Part shown: positions 3,774 to 21,536 of the stretch, one piece after another
Numbering within the stretch: position 1 is the stretch's first letter
How the letters are laid out: every line of letters begins with the position of its first letter
Virus record (IMG/VR): IMGVR_UViG_3300028178_000004
Span: 1-48,914 of that record
DNA length: 48,914 nucleotides
Reading direction: 5' to 3' (one strand)
Source of the DNA: a virus
Translations under genes and position numbers: made by a program
Notes under the pieces: generated by a model
What the model was told of the DNA's origin: nothing
Database searches by the model: none
Seen by the model: the letters and a program-made list of their open reading frames with translations, nothing else

Positions 3774-4345
3774 TTATTCAATTTCTAACATCTTTATATA
3801 TTTGTGTGATTGTACATGAATTTGGACACTTAATCGCTGCAAAGTTATGTAGATGTGGAGTTCCTACGTATGCAGTAGGTTTTGGTAAAATACTGTTTCA
3901 GAAAAAAATAGGAAAAACTAATTATCAATTTCGGTTACTTCCATTAGGAGGATTTTGTGAATTGGAAGATGAATTAACTGAAAGTAACAATTCTACAGCT
4001 TTTACTAATTTAAGATACATTAAAAAATTATTTATTTCAGCAGCAGGATGTGCTGTGAATATAATTTCAGGGTTAATTGTCGGGTTGATTGGATTAAAAA
4101 CGTTAAATCAAAATTTATTTTACTTTGGAACAATAAGTGTATCATTAGGTATAATGAATCTAATACCAATTATACCTTGTTTGGATGGTGGGTATATCGC
4201 ATTCTTCCCTTTATGTATGAAAATCTGGGGGAAAGAAAAAGGAACATTAATATTTGCAAAGATGGTTAAAATAAGTTTTAAAATAGTTATGTGGTTAAAT
4301 TATCTATGTATTCCGTGGCTTATTATGAACTGGAGAAAACTATGA
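3770..4345 (+). CDS. M50-family (site-2 protease-like) membrane metalloprotease
   Basis: The 191-residue protein has the zinc motif HEFGH at residues 16-20 inside the first hydrophobic segment. A central membrane segment carries AAGCAVNIISG (the family AGP..N region), and NLIPIIPCLDGG at 130-141 is the third conserved region that supplies the Asp zinc ligand. No PDZ domain is present, so this is a minimal S2P core. Such enzymes cleave membrane-spanning substrates such as anti-sigma factors. The start overlaps the HNH stop by four bases. A phage-borne intramembrane protease is rare, and its target is unknown. Confidence 0.85.
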   Translation: MIIQFLTSLYICVIVHEFGHLIAAKLCRCGVPTYAVGFGKILFQKKIGKTNYQFRLLPLGGFCELEDELTESNNSTAFTNLRYIKKLFISAAGCAVNIISGLIVGLIGLKTLNQNLFYFGTISVSLGIMNLIPIIPCLDGGYIAFFPLCMKIWGKEKGTLIFAKMVKISFKIVMWLNYLCIPWLIMNWRKL

Positions 4346-4667: not shown

Positions 4668-5570
4668 ATGGATAATTTAAACAAGGTGATTAGCACCACT
4701 CGCAAGCTAATCGACCTACCCTACAATAGATTCAACCTAGAAAACTGCTTTGCTGTACTTCACAGTCATGAGTTAAATCCTGTTACAATTGACACCGCTA
4801 AAAATCTGCCTATTAAACTAATGTCTGGGGATAATTTTTATGCCCGGATAATTACGTCGAACTATAAACTCCCAACTCCAAAAACTAAGAATATTTATAT
4901 TATTGGCAAGGGAATTCTATTTGACAGTGGTGGACTAGATGTTAAACCAGCAGGTCATATGACCGATATGACTAATGATAAAGCCGGAATGATAATTGCA
5001 ATGAATGTTGCCAATTATCTTAAAGGTAATGTCATAGCGTATTGCCCCGTTACGACCAATTTCGTCCAAAATAGTCGTATAACTCCTGGAGACATTATTC
5101 CGATAGGTAATCATAGTGTTCGTGTTACAGATACTGATGCTGAGGGCAGACTTGTGCTCGCCGAGGCAATATCGACCCTCCCTATCACTGAGAGTGATAT
5201 AATTATCACTATTGCGACATTAACGGGTTCATGTGAATATGCTATTGGAGACCGAGCTACAGCAGTTATGTCAGATAGTGAAGATTTATTAAAGAAGTAC
5301 GCAGAAGCATCTCACGAGGCTGGTGAGCTGGCTTGGGCATTACCGTGGTTCGATTATATGCAAGATTATTATAAAAAAGAACCAATAAAAAATTATATTA
5401 AGGAATTTAAAGGGGGAACAAGCCAGGGAGGGCTTTTTATCCGTCAGTTTGTTAAGTATCCTCAAAATTTCATCCATTTAGATATCGCCAGTAGTGCCTT
5501 CGGTGCCGATGGTCGTGCGAATGGCGTTCCTATCAAATCGTTAATTAATTTTATAAGGAGGCTCAAATGA
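4668..5570 (+). CDS. M17 leucyl aminopeptidase, catalytic domain only
   Basis: The 300-residue protein matches the C-terminal catalytic half of PepA/LAP (full enzymes are near 500 residues). Metal ligands are Lys81 (GKG), Asp86 (FDSGG), Asp104 (NDKAG), and Asp157 and Glu159 in DTDAEGRL; catalytic Lys93 and Arg161 are also kept. Their spacing follows E. coli PepA (270/275/282/293/352/354/356) except for one loop six residues shorter. The usual NTDAEGR signature reads DTDAEGR. The regulatory and DNA-binding N-terminal domain of PepA is absent. The predicted role is removal of N-terminal residues from peptides with two divalent metals. It has its own promoter candidate and a strong Shine-Dalgarno, and its 5' part looks less A+T-rich than its neighbours. 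Confidence 0.9.
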   Translation: MDNLNKVISTTRKLIDLPYNRFNLENCFAVLHSHELNPVTIDTAKNLPIKLMSGDNFYARIITSNYKLPTPKTKNIYIIGKGILFDSGGLDVKPAGHMTDMTNDKAGMIIAMNVANYLKGNVIAYCPVTTNFVQNSRITPGDIIPIGNHSVRVTDTDAEGRLVLAEAISTLPITESDIIITIATLTGSCEYAIGDRATAVMSDSEDLLKKYAEASHEAGELAWALPWFDYMQDYYKKEPIKNYIKEFKGGTSQGGLFIRQFVKYPQNFIHLDIASSAFGADGRANGVPIKSLINFIRRLK

Positions 5571-6274: not shown

Positions 6275-6517
6275 ATGAGCAATCCGATTATAGAAGATTT
6301 ATATTCAAAAGCGACAACACTAGAAGACGTTAAAAAATCTGATTACTTTGATTACACCTATAACGGTTTAGACCGAATAGACAATGCTAAAGGTTATATA
6401 TTAGATAATGTAGTACCGTGTTGTAAACATTGTAACTACGCTAAACGGAACATGTCAACTGAAAAGTTTTATAATCTCATTAAATCAATCTATGAAAACA
6501 TTAAAAACAGATTCTAA
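6275..6517 (+). pseudogene. truncated HNH endonuclease (C-terminal half)
   Basis: The 80-residue frame keeps the late part of a small HNH nuclease: GLDRIDN, then GYILDNVVPCCKHCN, then AKRNMS. The N-terminal half with the first zinc knuckle and DNA-binding part is missing, and no related sequence lies just upstream. It has no clear ribosome binding site, and its end overlaps the start of the transporter gene by 26 bases. I read it as a decayed homing endonuclease, although a very small active HNH protein cannot be excluded. Confidence 0.6.
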
Positions 6518-7670
6518 ACAGTTATTTTGGATATTTACCATGTCGGCTTCCTGTTATTTTTTACAGGGCTTCTCAGGGCTGCCATCGTTATCCATTTTTA
6601 AATATTTCAAAGAAGTATTAATGTATTCTCCTGAGAAATTGATGTATATTAATTCTATCATAGGACTGGCGTGGATACCGAAGATTATATGGGGATACTG
6701 TATAGACCAATTCTTATCCCGAAAAACTTGGATTACTCTTTCGCTTGTTTTAGACCTTATAACTGTTTTATTTTTGGGACTATGGTCTGCTCCTGCAGTT
6801 TTCTTGATTACATTAATGTTTATTAATTCTGCAGATTCAGCTATAAGAGATACTGGGGTGGATGGAACAATGTGCGTAGAAGGAAAAAAATATGATATTA
6901 CCGGAAAGATTCAGAGCATCCAGTGGATGTTTATTACCGCCTCAACAATTATAACCGGATTTTTAGGTGGTTATTTAGCTGAACACTACAACTATAAAAC
7001 AGGATTTTTGTGGATTATACCGTTCTATTTAATAATGTTTATTCCTCTTTATTTTTACAAAGAAGAAAAAGTAAAAAGGATTAGAATCAAGTTAATAGAC
7101 ACTATAAAACCGTATAAAGAAATTTTTAGACATAAATCGTTTCTCTGGGCTTGTCTGTTCTTATTCTTATATAAATTTTCTCCCTCTTTTGGCACACCAT
7201 TATCTTACGTGGAGCGAGATATTTTTAAATGGAGTTTTGCATGGATAGGAATTTTAGGAAGTATTTCTTCTGTTGTTTCAATAATTGGTGCCATGATTTA
7301 TTGGAAAATATGCCAGAAGATTAATACTAAAAAATGGTTATATTATTCTGTGTTTTTGGGTGCGTGTACTACGTTGTCTTATTTATATTATAAACCATAT
7401 ACTGCTGTAATATATTTAATCCTTTATAGTTTAATAGGTATGATAATTCACCTTATTATAATGGATTGGATGGCTAAATCATCCATAAAGGGTCTAGAAG
7501 CCACTACATTTGCTCTATTATGTGGTATAAACAACCTTGCTGCGGGAACTGCCAGTTCATTGACAGGAGCCTTTCTTTTCCCCAAGATAGGATTACATTG
7601 GCTTATTATTGCATCGGCTTTGACAAGTTTTTTATGCCTTCCACTTATTAAAAGATTGGAGATTAAATGA
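6492..7670 (+). CDS. MFS transporter of the folate-biopterin transporter (FBT/BT1) type
   Basis: The 392-residue membrane protein has about 11-12 hydrophobic segments and a basic loop in the middle (residues 190-210, YKEEKVKRIRIK). The N-terminal region contains the family-like pattern of YSPEKLMYINSIIGLAWIPK followed by a GY-CIDQF element, and a NSADSAIRDTGVDG stretch after the fourth segment, as in FBT proteins of plants, cyanobacteria and kinetoplastids. Family members carry folates, pterins or S-adenosylmethionine. It starts inside the decayed HNH frame, and its stop overlaps the next ATG. Complete transporters of this class are very unusual in phages; the substrate cannot be read from sequence. 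Confidence 0.75.
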   Translation: MKTLKTDSKQLFWIFTMSASCYFLQGFSGLPSLSIFKYFKEVLMYSPEKLMYINSIIGLAWIPKIIWGYCIDQFLSRKTWITLSLVLDLITVLFLGLWSAPAVFLITLMFINSADSAIRDTGVDGTMCVEGKKYDITGKIQSIQWMFITASTIITGFLGGYLAEHYNYKTGFLWIIPFYLIMFIPLYFYKEEKVKRIRIKLIDTIKPYKEIFRHKSFLWACLFLFLYKFSPSFGTPLSYVERDIFKWSFAWIGILGSISSVVSIIGAMIYWKICQKINTKKWLYYSVFLGACTTLSYLYYKPYTAVIYLILYSLIGMIIHLIIMDWMAKSSIKGLEATTFALLCGINNLAAGTASSLTGAFLFPKIGLHWLIIASALTSFLCLPLIKRLEIK

Positions 7671-7832: not shown

Positions 7833-8033
7833 ATGAGAAAAATAATGTATAAAACATCATGCCCTTACTGCTATGGTATTAAAACTTCGAAATTAAAAAA
7901 AGGATATAAATGTTTAAGATGCAATACTCTATTTTATAAACTTAATCCGCAAGACCGAGATGAACATTTAAGATGGGATGCTGATGAAGAAATGTTAAAA
8001 AATTTAGGTCTGCGAAAGAGAGATTTATTATGA
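7833..8033 (+). CDS. small zinc-ribbon protein (66 aa)
   Basis: I choose ATG 7833 after CAGGAGGTTAA; a start at 7812 would lie inside the previous gene. The 66 residues carry CPYC and CLRC (residues 10-13 and 28-31) with a Lys-rich spacer, then an acidic helix ending in RKRDLL. The stop overlaps the acyltransferase start, so the two are probably translated together. The function is unknown. Confidence 0.6.
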   Translation: MRKIMYKTSCPYCYGIKTSKLKKGYKCLRCNTLFYKLNPQDRDEHLRWDADEEMLKNLGLRKRDLL

Positions 8034-8467
8034 TAAAGAATGTTAAATTAGGAAAAAACGTAAAAATACCTCACCCAGAATTAGTTAATCTCTATGAATG
8101 CGAAATCGGTTCGGGAAGTTTTATAGGTCCTTTTGTAGAAATTACCAGAGGAGTTATTATAGGTAAAAATTGCAGAATACAATCTCATTCTTTTATTTGT
8201 GGAGGAGTAATATTAGGTAATGATGTATTTATTGGACACTCTGTCGTTTTTACAAATGATAAAAATCCTCGGGTCAATAATAAAGATTGGGTTATGGAAA
8301 AGACCTATGTAGGAAATAATTCATCAATAGGTTCTAATTCTACTATCTTACCCGTGAAGATTGGGAAGAATGTTCTTGTTGGAGCAGGAACGGTAATCAC
8401 AAAAAATGTTCCCGATAATACAATCATTTATAGTAAGTCTACAAAAACAGAGGTCAATCGTGGATAA
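8030..8467 (+). CDS. left-handed beta-helix (hexapeptide) acyltransferase, WbpD/WlbB-like
   Basis: The 145-residue protein is built almost entirely of hexapeptide repeats of the form [IV]-G-x-x-x-x (for example IGSGSF, IGKNCR, LGNDVF, IGSNST, VGAGTV). The segment VVFTNDKNPR is typical of UDP-amino-sugar N-acetyltransferases such as WbpD/WlbB, whose conserved FTND..PR loop is near the active site. The protein probably acetylates an amino group on a nucleotide-linked sugar, acting as a trimer with acetyl-CoA. It opens the glycan module, which continues with glycosyltransferases. The length is close to the short members of this family. Confidence 0.85.
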   Translation: MIKNVKLGKNVKIPHPELVNLYECEIGSGSFIGPFVEITRGVIIGKNCRIQSHSFICGGVILGNDVFIGHSVVFTNDKNPRVNNKDWVMEKTYVGNNSSIGSNSTILPVKIGKNVLVGAGTVITKNVPDNTIIYSKSTKTEVNRG

Positions 8468-8612
8468 TTTCTTTTTGGCACTTTATAATAAATTTAATAA
8501 AATGGGAATGAATGGAAAAGATTTAGATTCAATGCTTAATTCTTTACCGTGGAAATTAAAAGAATTAAAAGATGATGGTACTGAAATTTATGAATGTGAG
8601 GTAGAAGAATGA
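8460..8612 (+). CDS. small hypothetical protein (50 aa), GTG start
   Basis: The GTG at 8460 follows AGAGG at a suitable distance and overlaps the end of the acyltransferase gene by eight bases. The 50-residue product is helical with an acidic end (YECEVEE), and its stop overlaps the start of the next gene. No family is recognised. Its tight coupling on both sides argues that it is a real gene. Confidence 0.5.
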   Translation: MDNFFLALYNKFNKMGMNGKDLDSMLNSLPWKLKELKDDGTEIYECEVEE

Positions 8613-10300
8613 GTAAAACATTATGTTTAGGAATGATGGTGAAAAATGAGGCTCTAAATATTCGAGCAACATTAGAAGCTGTCAAGCCCATTATAGATTA
8701 TTGGGTTATCTGCGATACCGGCTCTACTGATGATACTGAAATTATTGCCAAAGAAGTATTAAAAAGTATTCCGGGAGAATACGTACATCGTCCGTGGGTT
8801 AATTTTGGATATAATCGTAGTGAGGTGGCTGTATTAACTAAAGATAAAGCAGATTACTCATTGATGTTAGATGCAGATTTCCTAGTAGAATTAAATGGAT
8901 TTGATAAAAATAAATTGGTAGCAGACCAATACGAAACAATTATCCATTGGGCAGGAAGTGAATTTTCTAATCACCTGTTATTTAATAATCGTTTGGCGTG
9001 GAAAAGTGTTGGCTGTGTGCATGAGTATTGGTATGCTGAGGATATTAAAACGAGAGAGAGAATTACTTCATTGAGCATCAATCATGACCGCCACGGACCG
9101 GCTAGACCCAAAGGAATGAATGATTTAACCTTATTACTGCAGGGTGTAAAAGATGAACCTAATAATGCTCGGTATTATTTCTATTTGGCAAATACATATC
9201 GTGATGTAGGACAATACGAAAAAGCAATTGAAACATTTAATAAAAGAGTTGAAATGAAAGGTTGGGACCAAGAGGTATTTTATTCTCTATATCAAATTGG
9301 ATATTGTTATGAATTATTAAAAGATAATGATAATGCTAAATTAGCTTATTTAAAATCATGGGAATATAGACCTTCCAGAGCAGAACCTTTATATAAGTTA
9401 GCATATATATGCAGGAATAATGGGGAATATCAGCAAGCTTATTTATTTACTAAAAAAGGATTAGAAATACCTAAACCACATGATATGCTTTTTGTTAATT
9501 TACCAACATATGATTATTGTTTATTATTTGAATTGAGTATATCTTCTTATTGGATTGGAAAATATGAAGAATCTAGAAATGCGTGTATACTACTAGATAG
9601 TCTAAAGGATATTCCAGAAGATGTTAGAACTATTAATAGAAAAAATGTTCAACATGACGAACAAAAATTATTTAATAAAGAATATTTAACTACTAAATTT
9701 CCTGGAGAAAAAGACCACAGTGTAACCACTTTTGCAGATAGAAATAATAAGTTAAAATCTCAGAACTTAAAAGATATGAAAGATATTGAAGATTATTTTA
9801 AAAATAAACTAAATTTACAATTGTATATGATTTATGGAACATTATTAGGTACGATAAGAGATAATAGTTTTATCCCAGGAGATAGTGATATAGATTTTGC
9901 ATATTTAAGTAAATACACCAATGTAGAAGACGTAAAAAAAGAAGTGGAAAGAATTGCATGGGATTTAAGACATGTGGGATTACTTGTTAAATGCCATAAT
10001 AATGGCGGACAACTGCGTGTATCTTCTCCCAGTAATAAAACTGTTGTTGATGTTTGGACCTCATGGATTGAAAATGAGGAATATCATATTATTCCTTATA
10101 GAAAAATAGGAAATAAAGAAGATATATCCCCTTTAATTAAAAAGAATTTTTATAATAGTGCTTTCATGGTTCCTAATAACAGTGAAAAAATACTTGATGC
10201 AATGTATATAGATTGGAAAAATATAATACCCAAACCCCAGAAATGGTCTAAATTAAATGAATGGAAAAGGCTTGACTACGAAGGAGGCAGTGATGTATAA
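8609..10300 (+). CDS. GT2 glycosyltransferase-TPR-LicD fusion protein
   Basis: The 563-residue protein has three parts. Residues 1-150 are a GT-A glycosyltransferase (MMVKNE start, DTGSTDDT, metal-binding DADF near 90-93). Residues 160-340 form TPR-like helical repeats (YYFYLANTYRDVGQYEKAIETF and following). Residues 385-560 are a LicD-type nucleotidyltransferase-fold domain with YGTLLGTIRD and SDIDFA. LicD proteins transfer phosphocholine or related phospho-alcohols from a CDP donor to sugars. One polypeptide could therefore build and phospho-decorate a glycan, with the TPR part as a scaffold. It starts by overlap with the previous gene and is followed by the ClpP-like gene. Confidence 0.85.
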   Translation: MSKTLCLGMMVKNEALNIRATLEAVKPIIDYWVICDTGSTDDTEIIAKEVLKSIPGEYVHRPWVNFGYNRSEVAVLTKDKADYSLMLDADFLVELNGFDKNKLVADQYETIIHWAGSEFSNHLLFNNRLAWKSVGCVHEYWYAEDIKTRERITSLSINHDRHGPARPKGMNDLTLLLQGVKDEPNNARYYFYLANTYRDVGQYEKAIETFNKRVEMKGWDQEVFYSLYQIGYCYELLKDNDNAKLAYLKSWEYRPSRAEPLYKLAYICRNNGEYQQAYLFTKKGLEIPKPHDMLFVNLPTYDYCLLFELSISSYWIGKYEESRNACILLDSLKDIPEDVRTINRKNVQHDEQKLFNKEYLTTKFPGEKDHSVTTFADRNNKLKSQNLKDMKDIEDYFKNKLNLQLYMIYGTLLGTIRDNSFIPGDSDIDFAYLSKYTNVEDVKKEVERIAWDLRHVGLLVKCHNNGGQLRVSSPSNKTVVDVWTSWIENEEYHIIPYRKIGNKEDISPLIKKNFYNSAFMVPNNSEKILDAMYIDWKNIIPKPQKWSKLNEWKRLDYEGGSDV

Positions 10301-10865
10301 AAAAGATGAGCACGAAGAATGCGACAAAAAGGATGATAAATATTCTGAAGAATTTTATTATAAGATTCTAAACAAAAATAGGTACATCCTTTTGTATGAT
10401 GAAATTAATAATCTTTCTTCTGATATGGTTTGCTCAAAATTAAGAGCAATGAACTATTTGGATGAAAGAAAGCCAATCACCCTAGAAATAAATAGTCCCG
10501 GAGGGATGGTTTGCTATGGTTTAGCAATTATCGACACAATTCATGCTATAAAAGCTCCTGTGAATACGATTATAACAGGAGAAGCATGCTCAATGGCAGC
10601 GATGATTAGCGTTGTAGGAAACAAACGCTATATCACTAGAAATGCGGTTTGGATGCAACATTGTTCTAGCGATATGGTTGGTGATTATTTAACCCATATT
10701 AAAGATAGAACTACATTCTTAATTAAGCTGGAAAAGCGAATGGATGCAATATTAAAGAATAAAACACACTTAATTGCTAAACAAATGAATCAGATTCGGA
10801 ATGGAGAACTGTGGTTGTTTGCGGATGAAGCTTTACAATACGGTATTGTTGATAAAATAATATAA
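10293..10865 (+). CDS. ClpP-like serine protease
   Basis: I choose ATG 10293 behind GAAGGAGGCAGTG, giving 190 residues. The ClpP fold is marked by ITLEINSPGG (oxyanion-hole region), GEACSMAAM with nucleophile Ser100, and WMQH with His123. The third catalytic residue is doubtful: where ClpP proteins have RD-x-F before the AeEA-YG element, this one reads RNGELWLFADEALQYG. About 28 charged N-terminal residues precede the domain. It lies in the glycan arm, far from the capsid genes, and a separate prohead protease is present, so a head-maturation role is unlikely. Protein turnover or use of a host Clp ATPase is possible. Confidence 0.82.
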   Translation: MYKKDEHEECDKKDDKYSEEFYYKILNKNRYILLYDEINNLSSDMVCSKLRAMNYLDERKPITLEINSPGGMVCYGLAIIDTIHAIKAPVNTIITGEACSMAAMISVVGNKRYITRNAVWMQHCSSDMVGDYLTHIKDRTTFLIKLEKRMDAILKNKTHLIAKQMNQIRNGELWLFADEALQYGIVDKII

Positions 10866-12083: not shown

Positions 12084-12769
12084 TGAACAATAAAACTTGT
12101 ATAGTTTGTAAATGCATTTACAAAAGAAAATCCAACAATCAAAAATACTGTTCTTATATATGTGCTAAACAGGCAAATTTAAGTAGAAGTAAATTATATC
12201 AAAAACTGCATAAAAAAGATAGGAAAAAATACTTAAAACTGAATCACACACACATTACAAAAATAACAAAAGAATACTATGAAACTCATAAAGAAAAATT
12301 AAATGAACTTTCAAAAGAATGGAAAAAGAATAATGCAAAAGAAAATCAAGTTTATATGACTAAATATAGGAAAAATAACAAAAAAAGAATAGCAGAGGTT
12401 GCAAGAGAATATGTAAAAAATAGATTAAAAACAGATATTAACTTTAAAATTGCTTGTTGTTTAAGAAATCGGGTTGGCAATGTTTTAAGAGGAAAAAACA
12501 AATCAATGTCTACTATAGATTTGCTAGGGTGTTCCATATCGTTTTTCATTAAATATTATCAATCTAAATTTACACAAGGAATGAAATGGGATAAAGTATT
12601 AAATGGGGAAATACATTGCGACCACATAAAACCATGTGCATCGTTCGATTTAAGTAAACCCGACGAACAGCGTAAATGTTTTAATTACACGAATTTACAG
12701 CCCTTGTGGGCGAAAGATAACTTAATAAAAAAAGATAAATATCTAAATAATAAACAGAAGGAATTTTAA
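12083..12769 (+). CDS. HNH endonuclease of the CDHI-PCASF type
   Basis: The 228-residue protein begins with a zinc finger (CIVC ... YCSYIC), continues with a long Lys-rich helical region, and ends with the nuclease: HCDHIKPCASFDLS, then CFNYTNLQPLWAKDN. This family is seen in phage and intron-associated HNH nucleases. The start forms TAATG with the preceding stop, and no clear ribosome binding site is present, which suggests low coupled expression. It is a close relative of the nuclease at 45040-45726 in the virion arm. Confidence 0.88.
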   Translation: MNNKTCIVCKCIYKRKSNNQKYCSYICAKQANLSRSKLYQKLHKKDRKKYLKLNHTHITKITKEYYETHKEKLNELSKEWKKNNAKENQVYMTKYRKNNKKRIAEVAREYVKNRLKTDINFKIACCLRNRVGNVLRGKNKSMSTIDLLGCSISFFIKYYQSKFTQGMKWDKVLNGEIHCDHIKPCASFDLSKPDEQRKCFNYTNLQPLWAKDNLIKKDKYLNNKQKEF

Positions 12770-13380
12770 TGAAAAAAGTAATCGTTATTTCAGGAACGAG
12801 TAGGGGATTAGGAAAAGATATTATGCAATCTTTATCCGAGTATAACATTGCAACTATAAGCCGGAGTTCTTATAATATCGAATCTAAAAACCGTCTGGTT
12901 GTTAAAGGAGACATAACCAATCAAGGTGATGCTGGGATATTGATGTACAAAACTTTTGAAAAATGGGGAAGGATTGATGTTCTAATAAACAATGCAGGTA
13001 TGCTAGGAGAATTTCGTCCATTAACAGCGTATCCGCCATTTGAAATTGAGAGATTAATTGATTTAAATATTAAAGGAACATTTTATATGACCCAAGAAGC
13101 AATTAAATTAATGAAAGAAGGATTAATACTTAACATTGGTTCTACTAGGTCTATTACAGGAGCACCAAATAAATCTATTTATACTATGTCTAAATTTGCT
13201 CTTAGAGGACTTACGCAATGTATCAATGCTGAATATAACCCGAGAATTTACAGTACAATTGTTTGCCCGGGTAATTTTAAAACAGTTTCAACGAAAGAAA
13301 TTGCAAAGATAATTAAAATGTTAATTAAGTTACCGAAAGAATGTTCAGTACCCGAAATTATTATAGGAGGGAAGTTATGA
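12769..13380 (+). CDS. short-chain dehydrogenase/reductase
   Basis: The 203-residue Rossmann enzyme has SGTSRGLG at residues 8-15 (NAD(P) binding), NNAG near 75, LNIGSTRS with the catalytic Ser, and YTMSK with catalytic Tyr and Lys. It is shorter than the usual 240-280, mainly at the C-terminal substrate region. The ATG overlaps the HNH stop (TAATG), after AGAAGGAATTT. Its position within the sugar-processing genes suggests it works on a nucleotide sugar or polyol, but SDR substrates cannot be read from these motifs. Confidence 0.87.
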   Translation: MKKVIVISGTSRGLGKDIMQSLSEYNIATISRSSYNIESKNRLVVKGDITNQGDAGILMYKTFEKWGRIDVLINNAGMLGEFRPLTAYPPFEIERLIDLNIKGTFYMTQEAIKLMKEGLILNIGSTRSITGAPNKSIYTMSKFALRGLTQCINAEYNPRIYSTIVCPGNFKTVSTKEIAKIIKMLIKLPKECSVPEIIIGGKL

Positions 13381-13871
13381 AACAGATAATGTTTGACCCG
13401 AAGATATTGGAAGAATTTTTTAGTGATAAAGTAAGAGAATACTGTAAAAGCTGTAAAAGGTACGGGTTCAAGGCACAGTGTCCCCCTTTTATTGAATCAG
13501 TAAGCTATTATAAAAAGATTCTACCTAAATTTGAGCATGGGGCACTGGTATTTAAGAAATTTTTGATAGAAAATCCTGAAAATTGGAAAGAATTGGGAGT
13601 TTCATCTAGTAAAGAAATACAGGACAAATTATTCGCAATTAGAGCAAAACTATTATCAGATGGGCATTTTGGAGTATGTTTTGGTGCTGGCTCCTGCAAG
13701 AATTGCGATGTATGTTCGTTTCCATGTCGATTTCCTGATAAGGCAATCATTCCATTGGAGGGAACAGGACTAGATGTAGTCGCTGCGGTTAAAAAAATAA
13801 CCAAATTAAATTTAAAGTTTCCAGTAAAAGACTACTTCTACAGAATAGGTTTGGTGCTTTTTGATGATTAA
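13377..13871 (+). CDS. DUF2284-type metal-binding protein
   Basis: I choose ATG 13377, overlapping the SDR stop (ATGA), behind AGGAGGGAAG. The 164-residue product has YCKSCKRYG, QCPPF, and the cluster GAGSCKNCDVCSFPC followed by IPLEGTGLDV. This Cys pattern matches DUF2284 proteins, which resemble predicted metal-binding, corrinoid- or iron-sulfur-linked proteins of anaerobic bacteria and archaea. The ten Cys residues suggest an Fe-S cluster or zinc. Its presence hints at an anaerobic host, though weakly. The role in the phage is unknown. Confidence 0.75.
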   Translation: MKQIMFDPKILEEFFSDKVREYCKSCKRYGFKAQCPPFIESVSYYKKILPKFEHGALVFKKFLIENPENWKELGVSSSKEIQDKLFAIRAKLLSDGHFGVCFGAGSCKNCDVCSFPCRFPDKAIIPLEGTGLDVVAAVKKITKLNLKFPVKDYFYRIGLVLFDD

Positions 13872-14502
13872 ATCAGTCTACTGTCTTCGATGCGATAAAA
13901 AACTATCTAAAACTGCTCATTATAACAGTAATAAATTATGTCGTGAATGTTATTATAAGACGTTGGCGGGAACAGGAAATCCTATGTTTGGATTCAGGTT
14001 TAGTAAAAAGCAAAAAGAAAAACGGAGCAAAGAAATGGCTGGAGTAAATAATCCTATGTTTGGTAAAAATGGTACATCTGCTCCAAGTTTTAAACATGGA
14101 AAATATTGCAAAGTAGAATTTTGTCTTGATTGTGAAAAGAAATTAGGTAAAGGGATTAGTTTACGTTGTAAAAGCTGTAATAAAAAATTATATTATAAAA
14201 ATAATGACATAAGTGGAAATAAAAATCCGAATTGGAAAGGTGGAAGAACAACTTTAAATTTGTTGGTTTACGCTTCGTTAAAATATAAGAATTGGAGAAA
14301 TAGGGTGTTTAAACGAGATGATTATACTTGCCAAGTATGTGGTGCAAAAGGCAATATAAATGCTCATCATAAAATACCAGTTGTTTGTATAATAGAAATG
14401 TATCAATTAAAATCCATTATTGACATTAGAAGTTGCAAATTAATGTGGAACATTATCTGGGGAATTACACTATGCGTAAAATGTCATCAAAAATTAAAGT
14501 AA
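13864..14502 (+). CDS. HNH endonuclease with NUMOD3-type repeats
   Basis: I take ATG 13864, inside the end of the DUF2284 gene; TTG 13861 directly before it is the alternative. The 212-residue protein has N-terminal zinc ribbons (CLRC, CREC), NUMOD3-like NPMFG elements near residues 40 and 60, a second ribbon (CLDC ... CKSC), and a nuclease part with YTCQVCG, INAHHKIP and, at the very C-terminus, LCVKCHQKLK. The expected segment between HH and the last C-pair is unusual (VCIIEMYQLKS). The 3' end overlaps the next gene by 31 bases. Confidence 0.82.
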   Translation: MIKSVYCLRCDKKLSKTAHYNSNKLCRECYYKTLAGTGNPMFGFRFSKKQKEKRSKEMAGVNNPMFGKNGTSAPSFKHGKYCKVEFCLDCEKKLGKGISLRCKSCNKKLYYKNNDISGNKNPNWKGGRTTLNLLVYASLKYKNWRNRVFKRDDYTCQVCGAKGNINAHHKIPVVCIIEMYQLKSIIDIRSCKLMWNIIWGITLCVKCHQKLK

Positions 14503-14936
14503 TATTCACTGCCGGCTCATTCGATTTACTTCATTTTGGGCATATCAATGTCCTTAAACAAGCTAAGGCAATGGGAACCTATCTGATTGTAGGGGTTTCT
14601 ACAGATTCCCTCATTTTACAGCATAAAGGCATGCGTCCTATAATCTGCTATAAAGATAGGACTGCTATTATTAAAGAATTAAAGATAGTGGATAAGGTTG
14701 TTAAGCAAACTAAATTAGTAGATATTGAACAATTTATCCAATTGAAAGCGGATTTATTCGTTGTAGGAGATGATTGGAAGAATCGAAAAGATAATCCCGG
14801 CATAAATTGGCTTAGAGATAATAATAAGATTGCTTTTATCCCTTATACTAAGCGATTATCATCTTCTAAAATTAAAGAAAAGATTATTAACAGTGCGGTG
14901 CGTATTATTAAATCGCAAGCAAAGAGGAGTAATTAA
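14472..14936 (+). CDS. TagD-like cytidylyltransferase
   Basis: I choose ATG 14472 behind TGGGGAATT, giving 154 residues. The nucleotidyltransferase motif TAGSFDLLHFGH is near the N-terminus (HxGH), and RLSSSKIKEK near the end replaces the family RTxGISTT..I motif. This is the fold of glycerol-3-phosphate and choline-phosphate cytidylyltransferases, and of ADP-heptose synthases. Directly downstream, with stop-start overlap, is a protein with two LicD domains, which are CDP-alcohol-using phosphotransferases. I therefore infer that this enzyme makes the CDP-linked donor (glycerol, choline, ribitol or similar) used by the LicD proteins. Confidence 0.82.
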   Translation: MRKMSSKIKVIFTAGSFDLLHFGHINVLKQAKAMGTYLIVGVSTDSLILQHKGMRPIICYKDRTAIIKELKIVDKVVKQTKLVDIEQFIQLKADLFVVGDDWKNRKDNPGINWLRDNNKIAFIPYTKRLSSSKIKEKIINSAVRIIKSQAKRSN

Positions 14937-16843
14937 TGAGTTACCCATTTTTTAGAGATTGGACCGAAGAAGATAAAGATTCAGCAATTAAAAAACTTAA
15001 AACATTAGAAACCGATTTTAAGAAAATGGGGTATGATATTCTCTTATATGGCGGTACTCTTCTTGGTGCTATGCGAGAAAGAGATTTAATCTTATCTGAC
15101 AATGATTTTGATATTATTATTTTTCATACTGTAAATATTAAAGAAGAAGTAAAAAAACAGATAATTGATATTGATAATAAATTTCATAACGAAAAACGGT
15201 TATGCGGAGATTTACATTTTTTAGGACAAAACCATTATTTTGTTGAAAAGAATTGGTTTGACGGATGGCACGGTTGGATTGGAGAAGATGATAAATTCTA
15301 TACTTTTTATCATATTAATGGGGAATTAAATAAAGAAGATATACTGCCCTTTAAACAAATAGAATTAAAGGGAGAAATATTTAATATACCTAAGAATCCA
15401 GAGAAAATGCTAGAAGTGCTATATGGGAAAAAATGGATAACTCCATTATCGTATAAACCCGCAGTACCAAACAAACAGTTATACCAATATTTTAATGGAG
15501 TTAGAAGTGTCCCTACCAACAAAATATTCACACAAAAAGAATTGCTATTAGATTTAAAATCTCTTCTAGATTTTAATGGTATTCAATTCTGGTTACAAAC
15601 AGGTACTCTATTAGGTGCAGTGAGAGATAAAGATTTTATAGCACACGACCCAAACGATATTGATATAAGTTTGGATATAAACGATAGATGGAAGGTAAAG
15701 GAAATTTTGGATAAGTCAGATTTTAAATATAAATATCAGTGGGATAAGGAATTGGCGGTATATAAAGGAAATACTAATCATCCACACGTAGATTTATTTT
15801 TTCATACTTCAGATGAAAAATATTCATACTGTTATTCTTATAAACCCAATAGAATACATAAACACTGGAATGAAGAATGGAGAATGAAAGTTCCGCTAGA
15901 TTTAATAGTTCCTCTAAAATATATCGATTTCTTAGGAACTAAATTTAGAGTGCCAAATGAGTCAGAAAAATATTTAGCCTATTTATATGGCGAAAGTTGG
16001 AGAATACCTAATCCAGGTTGGGAATTTACACAGTTTTCTAATACAGATAACACTTATTCTGCAATTACTGCAGTAGTTACTACTTTAAATAGAGAAAAGT
16101 CATTAGATAGGTTAGTTAAATCCTTCTGTAATTTATACCCAGATATTCCTCTAATTATAGGAAGTCAAAATAAAGAACCTATAAATATAACACATGAAAA
16201 CGTTACTGTTTTACAACTACCAGAAGACTGTGGACTAAGTTATGCCCGAAATGAGTTAGTTAAGCAGGTAAAAACGCAGTATACTTTATTATTAGAAGAT
16301 GATTTTATTCTAACACGTAACACGAATATATATAATATGATGGAGGTTTTTTCAGCTAATAAAGATATTGGAATAGTGGGCGGAAGATTGTGGCAAGAAG
16401 GTCAAGTAAAATCTTATGAGAAATTTTTGTTCATACTAGATAAAATTTTACTTTCGATAGAGTGGAATAAATTAGTAGATAATAAAACTATAGAACCTCA
16501 CCAGATAAATCAAATAAAATATGGTATATGCGACATCATTTATAACTTCTTTTTAGCTAAAACTGAAGTCTTAAAAAATAATCCCTGGGATATCAAACAT
16601 AAAATACATTCTGAACACATGGATTTTTTCTTAAATATAAAATTAAATAGCAATGTTAAAATAGCGTTTATTCCAGATGTTTTAATTGAACACCAGCATC
16701 CAGTAGATGATGAAAAATACCGTGAAATGAGAAAAAGAATGTATTATAATTTTATATACGAAAAATACGGTATTGAAAAAGGGTATACACTCGGAGAGAG
16801 TGCTATTATTAATTATAAAGAAAATCGGAGGGAAAATGTATAA
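14936..16843 (+). CDS. LicD-LicD-glycosyltransferase fusion protein
   Basis: The 635-residue protein contains two LicD-type domains in tandem: residues 30-185 with GGTLLGAMRE and DNDFDI, and residues 205-365 with TGTLLGAVRD and DPNDIDI. A GT-A glycosyltransferase (residues 380-635) follows with TAVVTTLNRE, DCGLSYARN, LLLEDDF and GIVGGRLW. The last part resembles GT2/GT12-type enzymes with an EDDF metal site. The start overlaps the cytidylyltransferase stop (TAATG), after GAGGAG. The likely role is assembly of a glycan carrying two phospho-alcohol groups, with all domains in one cytoplasmic polypeptide. Three-domain proteins of this order are not ones I know from characterised phages. Confidence 0.82.
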   Translation: MSYPFFRDWTEEDKDSAIKKLKTLETDFKKMGYDILLYGGTLLGAMRERDLILSDNDFDIIIFHTVNIKEEVKKQIIDIDNKFHNEKRLCGDLHFLGQNHYFVEKNWFDGWHGWIGEDDKFYTFYHINGELNKEDILPFKQIELKGEIFNIPKNPEKMLEVLYGKKWITPLSYKPAVPNKQLYQYFNGVRSVPTNKIFTQKELLLDLKSLLDFNGIQFWLQTGTLLGAVRDKDFIAHDPNDIDISLDINDRWKVKEILDKSDFKYKYQWDKELAVYKGNTNHPHVDLFFHTSDEKYSYCYSYKPNRIHKHWNEEWRMKVPLDLIVPLKYIDFLGTKFRVPNESEKYLAYLYGESWRIPNPGWEFTQFSNTDNTYSAITAVVTTLNREKSLDRLVKSFCNLYPDIPLIIGSQNKEPINITHENVTVLQLPEDCGLSYARNELVKQVKTQYTLLLEDDFILTRNTNIYNMMEVFSANKDIGIVGGRLWQEGQVKSYEKFLFILDKILLSIEWNKLVDNKTIEPHQINQIKYGICDIIYNFFLAKTEVLKNNPWDIKHKIHSEHMDFFLNIKLNSNVKIAFIPDVLIEHQHPVDDEKYREMRKRMYYNFIYEKYGIEKGYTLGESAIINYKENRRENV

Positions 16844-18776
16844 CCCTACGATTAGTTTAATTATACCTACCTATAATAGAACTGCATGGTTAAAACGAGC
16901 CTTAGATTCTGTATATTTCGTAGAATTTGATGAAGTAATACTCGTCAATGATGGTTCTGATAAAGAACATACTGATTATATTAAAAATATACTTTCTTGT
17001 TATCCAAAAATAAAATATATTGAGCATGGCTCGAATAGAGGTCTTGGAGAAGCACGGAATACAGGAATAAAGAACTGTACATCTGAATGGATTACGTTCC
17101 TAGATGACGATGATTACTATACAAAAAATCCACTGGAAAGTTTAAAAAAACATATAGCGAAACATCCAGAAGCAGACGTAATTAATTATAAAATTACACT
17201 AAAAAATTTAAAATCTAACCTTCATAATAAAACATTTGATTGGGGTCATGAAACTTTTACATTAGAAGATTTGGTTAATTATAACCGTTTAACAGGTTCC
17301 AGTCTATTAAAAAAATCCGTATGGTCAAAAGTTAAGGGATATAAAAATATACCATATGAAGACTGGGAATTTTGGATTCGAGTTAAACAAGCAAAATTTA
17401 ATTTTGTATTTTATCCTGATATTTTCTATGTTAGAGAAAACGTAGATGACGGTCTGGAAAAGGTAACTGGAAAAGAAATGTCAGATATTGATTGGAAAAT
17501 TAAATATCTAGGTATAAATTTAATTAAAAGTAGTAGAAATAAAGATATTGGACTCGGAATCTCTACATTTTTAAGAGATGAATCTCTTTTTAGATTAATA
17601 GACTCCATACTATTGCATCTACAGGAATTTAAAATGTATATTGTTGACCAGGGGGAACATTCCGAAAAAAAGGATAAATTATATGCTAAATTAACTAAAC
17701 TCGGTCATACAATTAAATATATACCGTATGATAGCGGAATTAGTAAAACTAGAAGAATTTTAAAAGAATTATGTAAAGAAAAGTATCTAGTATATATGGA
17801 AGATGATTTCCAGGCTACTTATAAGACTAACTTATATAAACTTAGAGAAATACTGGAAGAAAACCCAGCTTTGGGTATAGTGGGTGGAAACTTAGAAGGA
17901 TACGCTACTACAGGTTCTTATTCATATTTTTTAAATAGAGCAGATAATAAAATTTGTTACTTCCCCCTAGACTATTTAATCGAAAAAAATCTAGCTAAAT
18001 GGGAATTTACTAGCAAAGGAACTAAATTTCTTAGAGCAAATATAGTATCTGATTTTACCATGTGGAAAAGAGAAGTACCAAATATTTTTGATGACAATGT
18101 TAAAACAATAGAACATACGCATGTATATTTGTTAGTTAAAACAAAAACTAATTATACTGTTGGGTTCTGTCCTGAAACAGAAATTAAACACGTTCATGAT
18201 AATAAAAATCCTACTTATAATGCATTAAGGACAAGAAAAAAAGAGTTAGATTATCTAAAAGTATATTGGAATGTCGCTGATTTTTATACGTTTAATAAGA
18301 GTTCATTATATCAATTAGAAAAAACAGCAAACACTATAACTCCAGTTACTTATTTACCTTTAGATTCTAATACACCAAAACCCCCTGAAATTAAAATTCA
18401 AAAACTCGAAACAGTAGAATACAATAAAGTTAATAAAATAAATATAGAGCAGAAGGAAATTATTATTAAGATTATTAATTATCTAAATAAAAATTCTATT
18501 GTTTTCTGGTTATTGAATTACTCTTGCTTAGAAGCAGTTACCAAAAAAGACATAGTTTCCGATAAACTGTATATAGGTGTTTCTACTCTAAATGAAAAAG
18601 AATTGATTCTAAAAACATTTGAATACTGCAAAGAATTGCTTAATATTAAAGTAGAGCCAAAACGTATCATTAAACCCGCTAAACTTTATGATTTAAATAT
18701 TAATGTTCCTATACCTGTAGTTGCTTATTTAGAAAAAACATTTAAACAGACCTGGGAGGAATTAAAAAATGGGTAA
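16836..18776 (+). CDS. double glycosyltransferase with degenerate LicD-like tail
   Basis: I choose ATG 16836 after GGAGGGAAA, giving 646 residues. Residues 1-220 are a typical GT2 (SLIIPTYNR, VNDGSD, LGEARN, LDDDD near 90). Residues 235-490 form a second GT-A domain related to that of the preceding gene (STFLRDE, DSGISKTRR, MEDDF, GIVGGNLEG). Residues 525-646 look like a LicD domain that has lost its site: WLLNYSCLEAV stands for GTLLGAVR, and the Asp pair is absent. The gene overlaps the previous one by eight bases. The tail may serve only in binding. Confidence 0.8.
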   Translation: MYNPTISLIIPTYNRTAWLKRALDSVYFVEFDEVILVNDGSDKEHTDYIKNILSCYPKIKYIEHGSNRGLGEARNTGIKNCTSEWITFLDDDDYYTKNPLESLKKHIAKHPEADVINYKITLKNLKSNLHNKTFDWGHETFTLEDLVNYNRLTGSSLLKKSVWSKVKGYKNIPYEDWEFWIRVKQAKFNFVFYPDIFYVRENVDDGLEKVTGKEMSDIDWKIKYLGINLIKSSRNKDIGLGISTFLRDESLFRLIDSILLHLQEFKMYIVDQGEHSEKKDKLYAKLTKLGHTIKYIPYDSGISKTRRILKELCKEKYLVYMEDDFQATYKTNLYKLREILEENPALGIVGGNLEGYATTGSYSYFLNRADNKICYFPLDYLIEKNLAKWEFTSKGTKFLRANIVSDFTMWKREVPNIFDDNVKTIEHTHVYLLVKTKTNYTVGFCPETEIKHVHDNKNPTYNALRTRKKELDYLKVYWNVADFYTFNKSSLYQLEKTANTITPVTYLPLDSNTPKPPEIKIQKLETVEYNKVNKINIEQKEIIIKIINYLNKNSIVFWLLNYSCLEAVTKKDIVSDKLYIGVSTLNEKELILKTFEYCKELLNIKVEPKRIIKPAKLYDLNINVPIPVVAYLEKTFKQTWEELKNG

Positions 18777-18942
18777 AATAGTGTATTTAGTGGTATATAA
18801 TTCAGGAGAAAATTTTCACCATATTGCAAAAGCATTTCTCTCAAAAAAGAAGGCAGAAACATGTTGCAAAAGAACAAATACCCCATTAATGGGAAACAGT
18901 TACTGGAATGCCTCGATTATTGAAGTAAACTTGGAGGATTAG
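18769..18942 (+). CDS. small hypothetical protein (57 aa)
   Basis: ATG 18769 overlaps the end of the previous gene, behind TGGGAGGAATT. The 57-residue product (MGKIVYLVVYNSG start) has alternating beta-strand and helix character and ends in NLEDstop, whose TAG shares its last base with the next GTG. It is probably translated as part of the glycosyltransferase operon. The family is unknown. Confidence 0.5.
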   Translation: MGKIVYLVVYNSGENFHHIAKAFLSKKKAETCCKRTNTPLMGNSYWNASIIEVNLED

Positions 18943-19691
18943 TGAATAAAGTAGCAATACTTATAACCACATTTTTAAGAGATTACGCATTGTACAAAAC
19001 GGTACAATCTATTGTAGATAATTATACAGAAGAGTGTATAGTTTTAATTGCAGACCAGGGATATCAAACGGATGAAAAGATTATAACATATGATTATTTT
19101 AAATCCCAGATTCCCTGTGAAGTATATTATCTTCCTTTTGATTGCGGACTTAGTTATGCTAGAAATTTCTTGGTTAATAAGGCTAAAGAATTGGGATATG
19201 ATTATTGTTTAGTTTCTTCTGATTCAATTCAGTTTACTGAAAAATATAATTTTGAACCTATTATAGATTTCTTAAATTCTGAATCTAATTATGGTGTAGT
19301 TGGATTTGAATTAGAGAATGCCAAAGCTCCATGGAATTTTTATATGTATGTTGATAATAAAGGAATTCATTTTAAGAAATCTGAGGATTATATGATTTCT
19401 AATAACTTATCTTTCCAAAAAGTAGATATATGTATGAACATATTTTTAGCTAAAACTAATAGCATCACAGACTTATGGGATGTGGAATTTAAACTAGGAG
19501 AACATGAATTAGCGTTTTTAGAATTACAGAAACGTAATGTTAAAGTATTTTGGACTAATTCTATTAAATTTAAAAAGAATAATGCTGCTGGTGGGGATGA
19601 ATATAAAGAATATAGAAAAAGATTAGGTGATTATTTAAAATTACTTAGAAAAAAATTAAATATTAACGGATGGATAATCTATGATAAATAG
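18942..19691 (+). CDS. GT2/GT12-like glycosyltransferase with altered metal site
   Basis: The 249-residue protein starts at GTG 18942 after TTGGAGGATTA. It is a stand-alone copy of the GT domain found in the two preceding large proteins: ITTFLRDYALYKTVQSI, VLIADQG, DCGLSYARNFLV near 67-78. The EDDF metal motif of its relatives is replaced by SSDSIQF near 92, so metal binding may be altered or lost. DVCMN-like and HELAFL elements occupy the expected later positions. It probably arose by duplication within the module and may be a partner subunit or use another acceptor. Confidence 0.75.
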   Translation: MNKVAILITTFLRDYALYKTVQSIVDNYTEECIVLIADQGYQTDEKIITYDYFKSQIPCEVYYLPFDCGLSYARNFLVNKAKELGYDYCLVSSDSIQFTEKYNFEPIIDFLNSESNYGVVGFELENAKAPWNFYMYVDNKGIHFKKSEDYMISNNLSFQKVDICMNIFLAKTNSITDLWDVEFKLGEHELAFLELQKRNVKVFWTNSIKFKKNNAAGGDEYKEYRKRLGDYLKLLRKKLNINGWIIYDK

Positions 19692-19863: not shown

Positions 19864-20019
19864 ATGTTTACTGTTTGGTATGAGAAGAAATTATATTGGT
19901 ATTTTAAATCAGAAGGTTATATTATCTGCATTAGATTTATACCATTTATTAATAAATCTGATAAAGATAAACGACGTTTTGCTTGGTGGAGGATAAATGA
20001 AGAAAATAAAACGAGTTAA
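19864..20019 (+). CDS. small aromatic-rich hypothetical protein (51 aa)
   Basis: ATG 19864 follows AAGGAGTAAA, so I prefer it to the longer frame from 19807. The 51 residues are rich in Trp, Tyr, Phe and Lys (FTVWYEKKLYWYF). The gene end overlaps the amidoligase start by 23 bases. No family is recognised. Confidence 0.5.
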   Translation: MFTVWYEKKLYWYFKSEGYIICIRFIPFINKSDKDKRRFAWWRINEENKTS

Positions 20020-20683
20020 AAAAGAAGAAATAAAACTTACGGATATTACTAGAATCCGTTATTCCCCAGAATTTGAGTTCGAACTTCCGGCTAAGACTGA
20101 TGCGGATAAGTTAATTGACCGGGGGAAAACTCTTAAAGGATGGGAAATTAAGTCAGATGGTTCATTAAAAAATGGTATTGAACTTTCGCCTGAGAAATCA
20201 AACCATCTATTCTATAATGAAGACTCTTTGATGCAAATAAAAGAAATATTAGCATTATGCCGAGTATATAAGGCTAAAGCATTACCATCGTGCGGGTTAC
20301 ACCTACATATTAATGTTAAAAATTTATCAGATAAAGCGGTATTAAACATTATTCGTGAATGGGTTCATCGTCAAAAGTATATTGCCAAAAGATTTAATGT
20401 ATCTAAAGAGAGACTTTCAGAAACATGTAAATTTTTACCTAAAAAAGATTATAAATTGACCGAAAAAGTAATACATCAATATCGTAATCATAATGGTTAT
20501 TCTTTTAGTGGTTATTCTTCACTTGACGAAAAATACAGGTCATTGAACATTTCGCATTTACCTAAAACTGATTACGAGACGCTTGAATTCAGACTTTTTT
20601 CTTCGACTACGAACTTTAAGGAAATTAAATCAACAATATATTTCGTACTTACCTTTTGTCAGGAGGCAATTGAACGTGAGTAA
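19997..20683 (+). CDS. putative amidoligase (COOH-NH2 ligase family)
   Basis: The 228-residue protein has the pattern of Amidoligase_2 enzymes: an EFEFE strand at 25-29, GWEIKSDGSL with GIELSP near 48-65, CGLHLHIN near 99-106, and YRSLNI followed by TLEFRLFSST near 195. These glutamine-synthetase-fold ligases join amines to carboxylates with ATP and are predicted to modify peptides or cell-wall stems. The start lies inside the previous gene behind TGGAGGATAA, and the stop overlaps the GT9 start. In this context it may amidate a sugar acid or a peptide in a surface polymer. Confidence 0.78.
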   Translation: MKKIKRVKKEEIKLTDITRIRYSPEFEFELPAKTDADKLIDRGKTLKGWEIKSDGSLKNGIELSPEKSNHLFYNEDSLMQIKEILALCRVYKAKALPSCGLHLHINVKNLSDKAVLNIIREWVHRQKYIAKRFNVSKERLSETCKFLPKKDYKLTEKVIHQYRNHNGYSFSGYSSLDEKYRSLNISHLPKTDYETLEFRLFSSTTNFKEIKSTIYFVLTFCQEAIERE

Positions 20684-21536
20684 AACATTGCATTTAAATC
20701 GTCCTGGAGCCCTGGGTGATATAATCATGACCCTTATGGCAATTGATAAGTATAAAAAACTTAATCCTAATGATAAGATTATCTATTATTGCGACCCAAG
20801 TTGGAAAGATTTACCTATTATTTGTCCTGCGGTAGATGAAGTAAAAAGTAGTGCTGATTTCGATATTAAGACCCCTGGAGCACAAAATCTATACGGTTAT
20901 ACATCTAAACCTTTAGTTAAACATTTAACGTGGTATTTTGGTAAAGAATTAGGATTAGATGACCACTTTTATAATTATGGATTTTATCCTGAATTTCTTC
21001 CGACGGAAAATAAAGAATTTAATGTATTAATGAATTCTGAAAGGAAAGTAATAACTATACATTGTAATTCTGGATGGTCTCCTTATAAAGATTGGGATAT
21101 TCAAAATTGGCAGGGAGTAATAGACCGATTTTGTTCACTCGGGCGGACAGATTACGCCATAGTTCAAATAGGAAAAAGTGATATGAAATTAAACGGAACT
21201 ATTGATATGCGGAATAAATTAAGTGTTACGGAATGTATTCAATTAATTAAAAAAGCAACATTACATTTAGGTATAGATAGTTTTTCTAATCATGCAACTG
21301 CATTATTGCCCTATACGCCTTCAGTTATATTATGGGGTTCTACTCATCCGGGCGTATTCGGTTACGGGCATAATATTAATATCTGGAAACCTTTAAAATG
21401 TTCACCCTGCAATAAAATTTATAATAATTTATCTAAAACAACACAAAATCCGTGTCCTACAGAACCACATCCATGCATGTCTGCTATTACAGTAGATGAA
21501 GTATTTAATGCTATTTTAAAAAAGTTAGGAGTATAA
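20676..21536 (+). CDS. GT9 (heptosyltransferase-like) glycosyltransferase
   Basis: I choose GTG 20676 behind CAGGAGGCAATT; the frame also opens farther upstream but without a ribosome binding site. The 286-residue product is a GT-B enzyme: NRPGALGDIIMT at the N-terminus (family GxLGD), a middle HCNSGWSPYKDW, and LGIDSFSNHATALL near the C-terminal nucleotide site with VILWGST. A Cys-containing tail (CSPCNKIY ... CPTEPHPCM) is like that of many GT9 proteins. These enzymes use nucleotide-linked heptose or similar sugars for surface polysaccharide. Confidence 0.82.
   Translation: MSKTLHLNRPGALGDIIMTLMAIDKYKKLNPNDKIIYYCDPSWKDLPIICPAVDEVKSSADFDIKTPGAQNLYGYTSKPLVKHLTWYFGKELGLDDHFYNYGFYPEFLPTENKEFNVLMNSERKVITIHCNSGWSPYKDWDIQNWQGVIDRFCSLGRTDYAIVQIGKSDMKLNGTIDMRNKLSVTECIQLIKKATLHLGIDSFSNHATALLPYTPSVILWGSTHPGVFGYGHNINIWKPLKCSPCNKIYNNLSKTTQNPCPTEPHPCMSAITVDEVFNAILKKLGV

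Follow-up and report, generated by a model that had tools for sequence, protein, structure and literature searches.

A 48,914-nt stretch of viral DNA (IMG/VR record IMGVR_UViG_3300028178_000004, G000 in our set; hereafter the window) carries on its + strand a run of overlapping genes in which a nucleotidyltransferase of the cytidylyltransferase type (gene A) adjoins a LicD-LicD-glycosyltransferase protein (gene B), followed by further glycosyltransferase (GT) genes (C and D), with a GT-tetratricopeptide repeat (TPR)-LicD fusion (gene E) encoded upstream. The domains, the gene order, the folds of the two stretches that were modelled and the recurrence of the nucleotidyltransferase-LicD linkage elsewhere are direct observations. 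Their best explanation, which we hold with slightly better than even confidence, is a phage module that decorates glycans by means of cytidine diphosphate (CDP)-alcohols and LicD transferases, a virion protein being the likeliest target. The module comprises the following genes and domains:

14472..14936, + strand: gene A, CTP_transf_like nucleotidyltransferase (PF01467, 5.3e-17)
14936-16843, + strand: gene B, LicD-LicD-GT2 protein (Pfam and reading of the open reading frame, ORF)
14936..15526, + strand: gene B, LicD-1 domain (LicD match; GTLLGAMR...DNDFDI present)
15515..16072, + strand: gene B, LicD-2 domain, FKRP-like (PF04991; phmmer match to FKRP, 4.2e-4; AlphaFold2 and Foldseek)
16058..16840, + strand: gene B, GT2 domain of a type that we label 'EDD/DCG' (PF00535, 9.4e-11; B4GALNT1, 6.2e-12)
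16836..18776, + strand: gene C, GT2-GT2 with a C-terminal tail (PF00535, 7.9e-37, two stretches)
18769..18942, + strand: ORF of 57 amino acids (aa) between C and D (sequence reading)
18942..19691, + strand: gene D, weak GT2, GT of the B type (PF00535, 8.5e-5, just under the cut-off)
8609..10300, + strand: gene E, GT2-TPR-LicD fusion (Pfam; phrog_13126, 1.5e-29)

Genes A, B and C, the 57-aa ORF and gene D overlap end to end. The start of gene A is the ATG at 14472, or possibly a TTG in frame with it at 14433, and the gene's stop ends at 14936, so that the start of B, which is preceded by GAGGAG, has one base in common with A; the ATG of C falls inside the 3' end of B, and D starts with GTG. This reading bears out the ORF positions and the A/B overlap given in an earlier annotation of the window (hereafter the original prediction).

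Domains and folds of the module proteins

In gene B, Pfam detected LicD (1.8e-18, three stretches) and Glycos_transf_2, and the curated PF04991 cut-off of 22.6 bits was exceeded by both B (67.9) and E (34.2). The conserved G-T-L-L-G, R and D residues of the LicD family are present in LicD-1, LicD-2 and E. An AlphaFold2 model of LicD-2, the only LicD stretch modelled, was built with 27 further alignment rows and reached a mean local confidence (pLDDT) of 86.6 and a global score (pTM) of 0.84; its best match among solved structures by Foldseek was FKRP (2.2e-8, TMq 0.69), followed by lincosamide nucleotidyltransferase, in agreement with an FKRP-like nucleotidyltransferase fold. The GT of B matches B4GALNT1 by sequence, and the model of the FKRP stem, FKRP_N, matches the same region weakly (2.1e-4, under its cut-off). 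The order LicD-LicD-GT of the original prediction is thus upheld by the Pfam matches, the LicD residues and the predicted fold of LicD-2. The GT-TPR-LicD fusion E stands as well, Pfam having recognized in it TPR, LicD (3.7e-8) and Glycos_transf_2 (4.9e-6).

Gene C had been described as GT-GT-degenerate LicD, of which the two GT2 domains stood and the degenerate LicD did not. The AlphaFold2 model of the whole protein was weaker (73.5), and the second GT within it, the only GT modelled, was modelled well and matched B4GALNT1 in Foldseek (9.8e-18), as expected of a GT-A fold. Structure prediction, which had been proposed as a check on each domain, therefore returned a LicD and a GT-A fold for the two stretches modelled. 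The tail of C had no Pfam LicD match at E<=0.1, lacks the LicD active-site residues in its translation, is modelled mostly at pLDDT 30-60, and resembles LicD-2 only faintly (pairwise BLASTP E of 3e-4; hhalign probability 3.8); a degenerate LicD was on these grounds rejected as an established domain.

The PF00535 cut-off was passed by B, C and E, with D just under it (23.0 bits against 23.3). The lone GT of the original prediction is a GT2 of B's type according to a GT profile built in this analysis (2.5e-36), its Pfam score notwithstanding. In an alignment, D has SDS at the position where most relatives have xDD, and may be impaired. Mis-annotation of the domains was considered and ruled out, as the Pfam scores and the folds of the two modelled stretches agree with the assignments.

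A nucleotidyltransferase recurs beside LicD in other viruses

LicD alignment scans and tblastn searches against phage records yielded 20 non-self viral LicD records (14 from IMG/VR, 6 from phage), all of which passed the PF04991 cut-off; they contain near relatives (L029/L030, L038/L039 and L023/L050), and one of four S-CAM7 records was used. This search for the gene set in other phages, suggested in the original prediction, found the CTP_transf_like domain within 4 kb of LicD in 10/20 records, elsewhere in the record in 3/20 and nowhere in 7/20. In two of these seven, IspD lies directly beside LicD, bringing to 12/20 the records with CTP_transf_like or IspD near LicD. The same 10 records were found with a profile that we built partly from these phage sequences.

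As a control, CTP_transf_like was sought by the latter means in the flanks (up to 4 kb) of non-self viral GT-TPR loci, where it occurred in 0/79 (p = 1.2e-8, Fisher, 10/20 vs 0/79; p = 0.004 after merging relatives, 8/17 vs 0/13 clusters). This control consists of the best 80 of 319 loci, is redundant (13 clusters at 50% identity), includes both 4-kb flanks in 43/79 cases, and covers one GT type rather than glycan islands in general. The flanks of these relatives of E contained no LicD either (0/79), and no counterpart of B was found in the records of three of them. One GT-TPR protein (L102:4001-4981) is 69% identical to the first 330 residues of E; its fetched flanks lack LicD, and positions 6370-7011 of the same record encode a GT of the window's type. 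In Tunturiibacter phage Tunturi_5 (L035:4977-7098), a GT-TPR relative (37%) lies beside an annotated nucleotidyltransferase that has only a weak RlaP match.

In two phages the activities are joined in one reading frame. L048 encodes a 1112-aa frame with the order GT2-GT2-LicD-CTP_transf-GT2, directly ahead of genes that look tail-like by eye, and L210 a 938-aa open frame with GT-LicD-CTP_transf-GT, in a similar place and with a GT showing 52% identity. L210 came from a scan for EDD-type GTs that returned six loci, four of them members of the query; the remaining two were new, and LicD and CTP_transf_like were present in L210 but not in L214. Other arrangements were an overlap of LicD with a near match to glycerol-3-phosphate cytidylyltransferase (GCT; 146.1 bits, cut-off 165.4), together with two GTs of the window's type (L041); IspD, LicD and a CTP_transf-GT fusion (L021); and two LicDs with a fusion of NTP-transferase and kinase (L022). 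The latter fusion is a better donor candidate in L022 than its HldE-like CTP_transf_like enzyme; across 21 LicD records, NTP_transferase (PF00483) was found in this record, with a sub-threshold match on IspD in that of L033.

In Vibrio phage 1.031.O (L029:5620-8618), domain searches revealed a row of genes for CTP_transf fused to choline kinase, for a BCCT transporter and for LicD; their deposited names are 'coil containing protein', 'TMhelix containing protein' and 'LicD family protein'. Vibrio phage 150E35-1 (L030:5623-8624) shows this row in its annotation, and searches confirmed CTP_transf_like and LicD there. From its sequence, the cassette looks like a complete phosphocholine pathway. 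In two gut phage records, an IspD gene overlaps LicD (L032:7160-8780 and L033:3167-4766); these pairs perhaps supply a CDP-polyol donor rather than serving isoprenoid metabolism.

The pair is also present in bacteria

Two short LicD patterns, scanned against bacterial genome contigs, led to 49 loci in which LicD was confirmed. The gap between the CTP_transf_like and LicD domain hits (the smallest, if several) was at most 20 bases in 17 loci, 50 bases in 19, 2 kb in 23 and 4 kb in 24; Listeria accounts for six of the 23. In a Lachnospiraceae genome (L084:7669-9294), both domains occupy one open frame. The bacterial LicD stretches are mostly longer than those of most phage loci, and none is fused to a GT of the window's type, the single weak GT match (L069) lying apart from LicD. 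Since cells have the pair too, the unusual feature of the window lies in its LicD-LicD-GT and GT-TPR-LicD fusions. That the linkage recurs among unrelated phages as well as bacteria, in two phages within one frame, shows that these genes are not unlinked and non-conserved among homologues.

Donor and target of the putative module

In the mechanism that we propose, gene A would join cytidine triphosphate and an alcohol phosphate into a CDP-alcohol; a short glycan would be assembled in the cytoplasm, on an acceptor, by the GT2 domains in genes B, C and E and perhaps a GT9-like protein encoded nearby; and the LicD domains of B and E, judged by family and fold, would take the alcohol with its phosphate from the CDP donor and place it on a hydroxyl of a sugar, as in the case of FKRP and CDP-ribitol. 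The likeliest target would be a virion protein, for example a tail or fibre protein, and this is the weaker part of the proposal. That donor synthesis and transfer are encoded side by side, as originally claimed, is probable given the recurring linkage.

Gene A itself exceeds the curated PF01467 cut-off by far (62.7 bits vs 21), and HFGH and SSSKIK are seen in its translation. We predict it to be, probably, an alcohol-phosphate cytidylyltransferase. Glycerol-3-phosphate is the simplest guess for its substrate, since the module proteins that were searched included no alcohol kinase. Among solved proteins, the best single stretch belongs to TagD (1coz, 85.9 bits); ethanolamine-phosphate cytidylyltransferase (3elb) matches in two stretches (57.6 + 29.7 bits) and ranks first only by their sum. 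The phage CTP_transf_like enzymes fall in several places of a tree, L041 by the GCT references and L022 with HldE, which suggests repeated recruitment by phages; the well-supported branches force only two changes.

Several observations, on the donor as well as on the target, weigh against this reading. Neither CTP_transf_like nor IspD lies within 4 kb of LicD in 8/20 viral LicD records, in two of which (G005 and W06) LicD is at the contig end. The scores of A are level between the model of the glycerol-3-phosphate cytidylyltransferase TagD (TIGR01518, 92.5 bits) and that of the heptose-1-phosphate adenylyltransferase in the C-terminal domain of HldE (TIGR02199, 92.6 bits), both below the equivalog cut-offs (165.4 and 181.5), and the tree, made by a quick method and with long branches, leaves A unplaced. 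The heptose model gives the higher score for seven of the nine further phage enzymes tested (L021, L022, L038, L039, L043, L045 and L048), among them the one-frame protein of L048 and the enzyme of L022, which comes near the cut-off of that model; the glycerol-3-phosphate model is ahead only in L041 and L029. Nearness of CTP_transf_like to LicD is consequently no proof of a CDP-alcohol. The original prediction had called A TagD-like: its place in the nucleotidyltransferase family stands, and TagD becomes one option only, the name being rejected here on account of the missed equivalog cut-off and the tree.

These scores, together with the tree, in which L022 groups with HldE and A is left unplaced, speak for A being a heptose-1-phosphate nucleotidyltransferase, or another enzyme making nucleoside diphosphate-sugars, that lies beside LicD through a general clustering of glycan genes. 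We consider this unlikely: 3glv, a solved protein named for lipopolysaccharide core biosynthesis, matches A with 57.6 bits as compared with the 85.9 of TagD, and in two phages the nucleotidyltransferase shares a frame with LicD. Furthermore, among the sequences collected, the cellular enzyme L191 is the best match of A (96.6 bits; its distance to LicD was not checked), and the next three (L064, L063 and L093, 92.7-95.0 bits) come from bacterial LicD loci, above the reference enzymes of the GCT (82 bits or less) and HldE (65 bits or less) types.

As to the target, a virion protein is favoured because proteins A-E have no membrane-type hydrophobic stretch by hydropathy and because LicD islands adjoin virion genes in 8/20 records (L021, L022, L023, L031, L040, L044, L045 and L048), as also in L210; except for the annotated tail fibre of S-CAM7, this adjacency was read by eye from ORFs. 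On the opposite side, the module does not adjoin virion genes in the regions read of L041, L043, the Vibrio phages and the IspD-LicD records, in the window it lies on the strand opposite to a tape-measure-like gene (weak match, 31533-33680), and soluble LicD enzymes may act on lipid-linked envelope glycans too. A serious rival, which we hold to be possible but not probable, is that the same chemistry modifies the host envelope (lipopolysaccharide, capsule or teichoic acid) during infection, so that the receptor is altered and other phages are kept out. Decoration of envelope glycans is the role of the known LicD enzymes (excerpts of PMC10434233), such a role was proposed for phage licD (Benler et al. 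2021, excerpts of PMC8008677), and the Vibrio cassette includes a transporter of the choline type and has a gene for an anaerobic ribonucleotide reductase in its vicinity, with no annotated virion genes beside it. Apart from the island positions, what argues for a virion target over the envelope is that A-E include no membrane protein and that no flippase, polymerase or lipid-carrier transferase was among the Pfam matches of the module genes searched (the 96-kb contig described below was not searched exhaustively).

A third scenario, in which the GTs modify bases of the phage DNA and LicD adds a charged group for protection against host nucleases, draws on weak matches of D to phrog_842, a beta-glucosyl-HMC-alpha-glucosyltransferase (0.0085), and to TAGT (0.057). 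It seems very improbable, since no TET/JBP or hydroxymethylase match was found among the proteins searched, which are part of the contig's genes only, and a GT of the same type has a B4GALNT1-like predicted fold; with nothing but weak matches, it was rejected as the leading explanation.

Source and neighbouring genes

The source is most likely a tailed phage. A 96,496-base IMG/VR contig contains the window and was identical over the 20,000 bases compared; at the same offset, the alignment does not extend to the final 67 bases of the window. The two may derive from related assemblies, and the contig is not independent proof of the sequence. Its genes include those for a DNA polymerase, a primase, a UvsX-like protein, an exonuclease, a clamp loader and a tail fibre. 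Against 50,697 phage records, no match was obtained with the module (blastn) or with one protein of the structural strand (tblastn); the LicD part of B likewise had no match in phages (tblastn), and scans of viral contigs with the single proteins A, B and E recovered only the 96-kb relative.

Possible accessory genes, predicted originally and recovered here by Pfam, are:

8030..8467, + strand: hexapeptide acyltransferase, previously called WbpD-like (PF00132, 6.9e-22)
12769..13380, + strand: SDR family protein (PF00106, 4.5e-34)
20583..21536, + strand: GT9-like protein (PF01075, 1.3e-7)

A DUF115-like gene proposed at 21780 had no Pfam family at E<=0.01 and was not sustained. Elsewhere in the window are HNH/NUMOD3-type endonuclease genes (3228-3773, 36361-37002 and 13861-14502, the last judged by eye and overlapping the start of gene A), genes for a peptide deformylase (2530-3228), an M50 peptidase (3770-4345), a leucyl-aminopeptidase-like protein (4668-5570) and a ClpP-like protein (10257-10865), a gene for an MFS/BT1 folate-biopterin-type transporter (6492-7670) and, shortly 3' of the module, an Amidoligase_2 gene (19997-20683).

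Relation to known systems

LicD enzymes use CDP donors and transfer the phosphate along with the alcohol (excerpts of PMC4873967 and PMC11982090). One close cellular parallel is the ISPD-FKTN/FKRP ribitol-phosphate pathway of dystroglycan, which like the window pairs a CDP-alcohol synthase with a LicD-domain transferase; bacterial ISPD-LicD fusions are mentioned as well (excerpts of PMC4873967). The likeness extends to the FKRP-like predicted fold of LicD-2 and the weak resemblance of B's GT region to the FKRP stem. The window differs in belonging to a phage, in its nucleotidyltransferase family and in having two LicD domains before the GT. The Lic-1 phosphocholine pathway (LicA-LicB-LicC-LicD; excerpts of PMC10434233) also recalls the window, where a probable cytidylyltransferase lies beside LicD, but neither a choline kinase nor a choline transporter was found among the window genes searched. 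Vibrio phage 1.031.O, in contrast, matches Lic-1 in kinase, transporter, cytidylyltransferase and LicD, albeit with BCCT and CTP_transf_like domains.

Among tailed phages, adjacent ispD and licD genes are described in some Flandersviridae, where licD was proposed to modify teichoic acids against superinfection and IspD was linked to isoprenoid synthesis (Benler et al. 2021, excerpts of PMC8008677). As in the window, a nucleotidyltransferase gene adjoins LicD, but it is of the IspD and not the CTP_transf_like family, and no LicD-GT fusion was met for Flandersviridae in these excerpts. The IspD-LicD records L032 and L033 resemble this pair in gene content, kinship not having been tested. Among giant viruses, the Fadolivirus A0A7D3V5Y6 and Indivirus A0A1V0SD50 proteins, named LicD with glycosyltransferase, are the nearest viral models by fold among the matches listed, and Bodo saltans virus A0A2H4UTB4, named MEP cytidylyltransferase, nevertheless matches the LicD model and perhaps combines LicD and IspD in one protein; these matches include no CTP_transf_like fusion. 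All three are viruses of eukaryotes.

The statement of the original prediction that no such phage system had been described needs qualification, as the exact domain order was met nowhere else, whereas licD beside ispD is known in Flandersviridae (excerpts of PMC8008677) and LicD-GT proteins have been named in giant viruses. The open-licence literature searched yielded no description of a CTP_transf_like-LicD-GT protein, of the cassette seen in the Vibrio phages or of LicD as a viral auxiliary metabolic gene; absence from print is not thereby shown.

Implications

We tentatively suggest, as a possibility we would not call likely, that tailed phages have put together, more than once, phospho-glycan machines that are self-contained, consisting of a CDP-alcohol synthase, a GT and LicD and sometimes made as one polypeptide, which would put phosphodiester-linked alcohols on virion proteins as a counterpart of the ISPD/FKRP decoration of dystroglycan, with the Vibrio phages having a whole phosphocholine pathway. 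The phage records consulted label genes of this kind 'hypothetical', 'coil containing' or 'glycosyltransferase', and the one-frame GT-LicD-CTP_transf-GT proteins tell which of these activities work together. With the cassette of the Vibrio phage, a cultured system is at hand in which the donor, choline, can be guessed and directly tested. For ispD beside licD in gut phages, a simpler reading than isoprenoid metabolism would be a CDP-polyol synthase feeding LicD. The pairing resembles the pathways behind human dystroglycan and bacterial phosphocholine decoration, and if virions do carry phospho-alcohol groups, this would bear on phage adsorption and on the recognition of virions.

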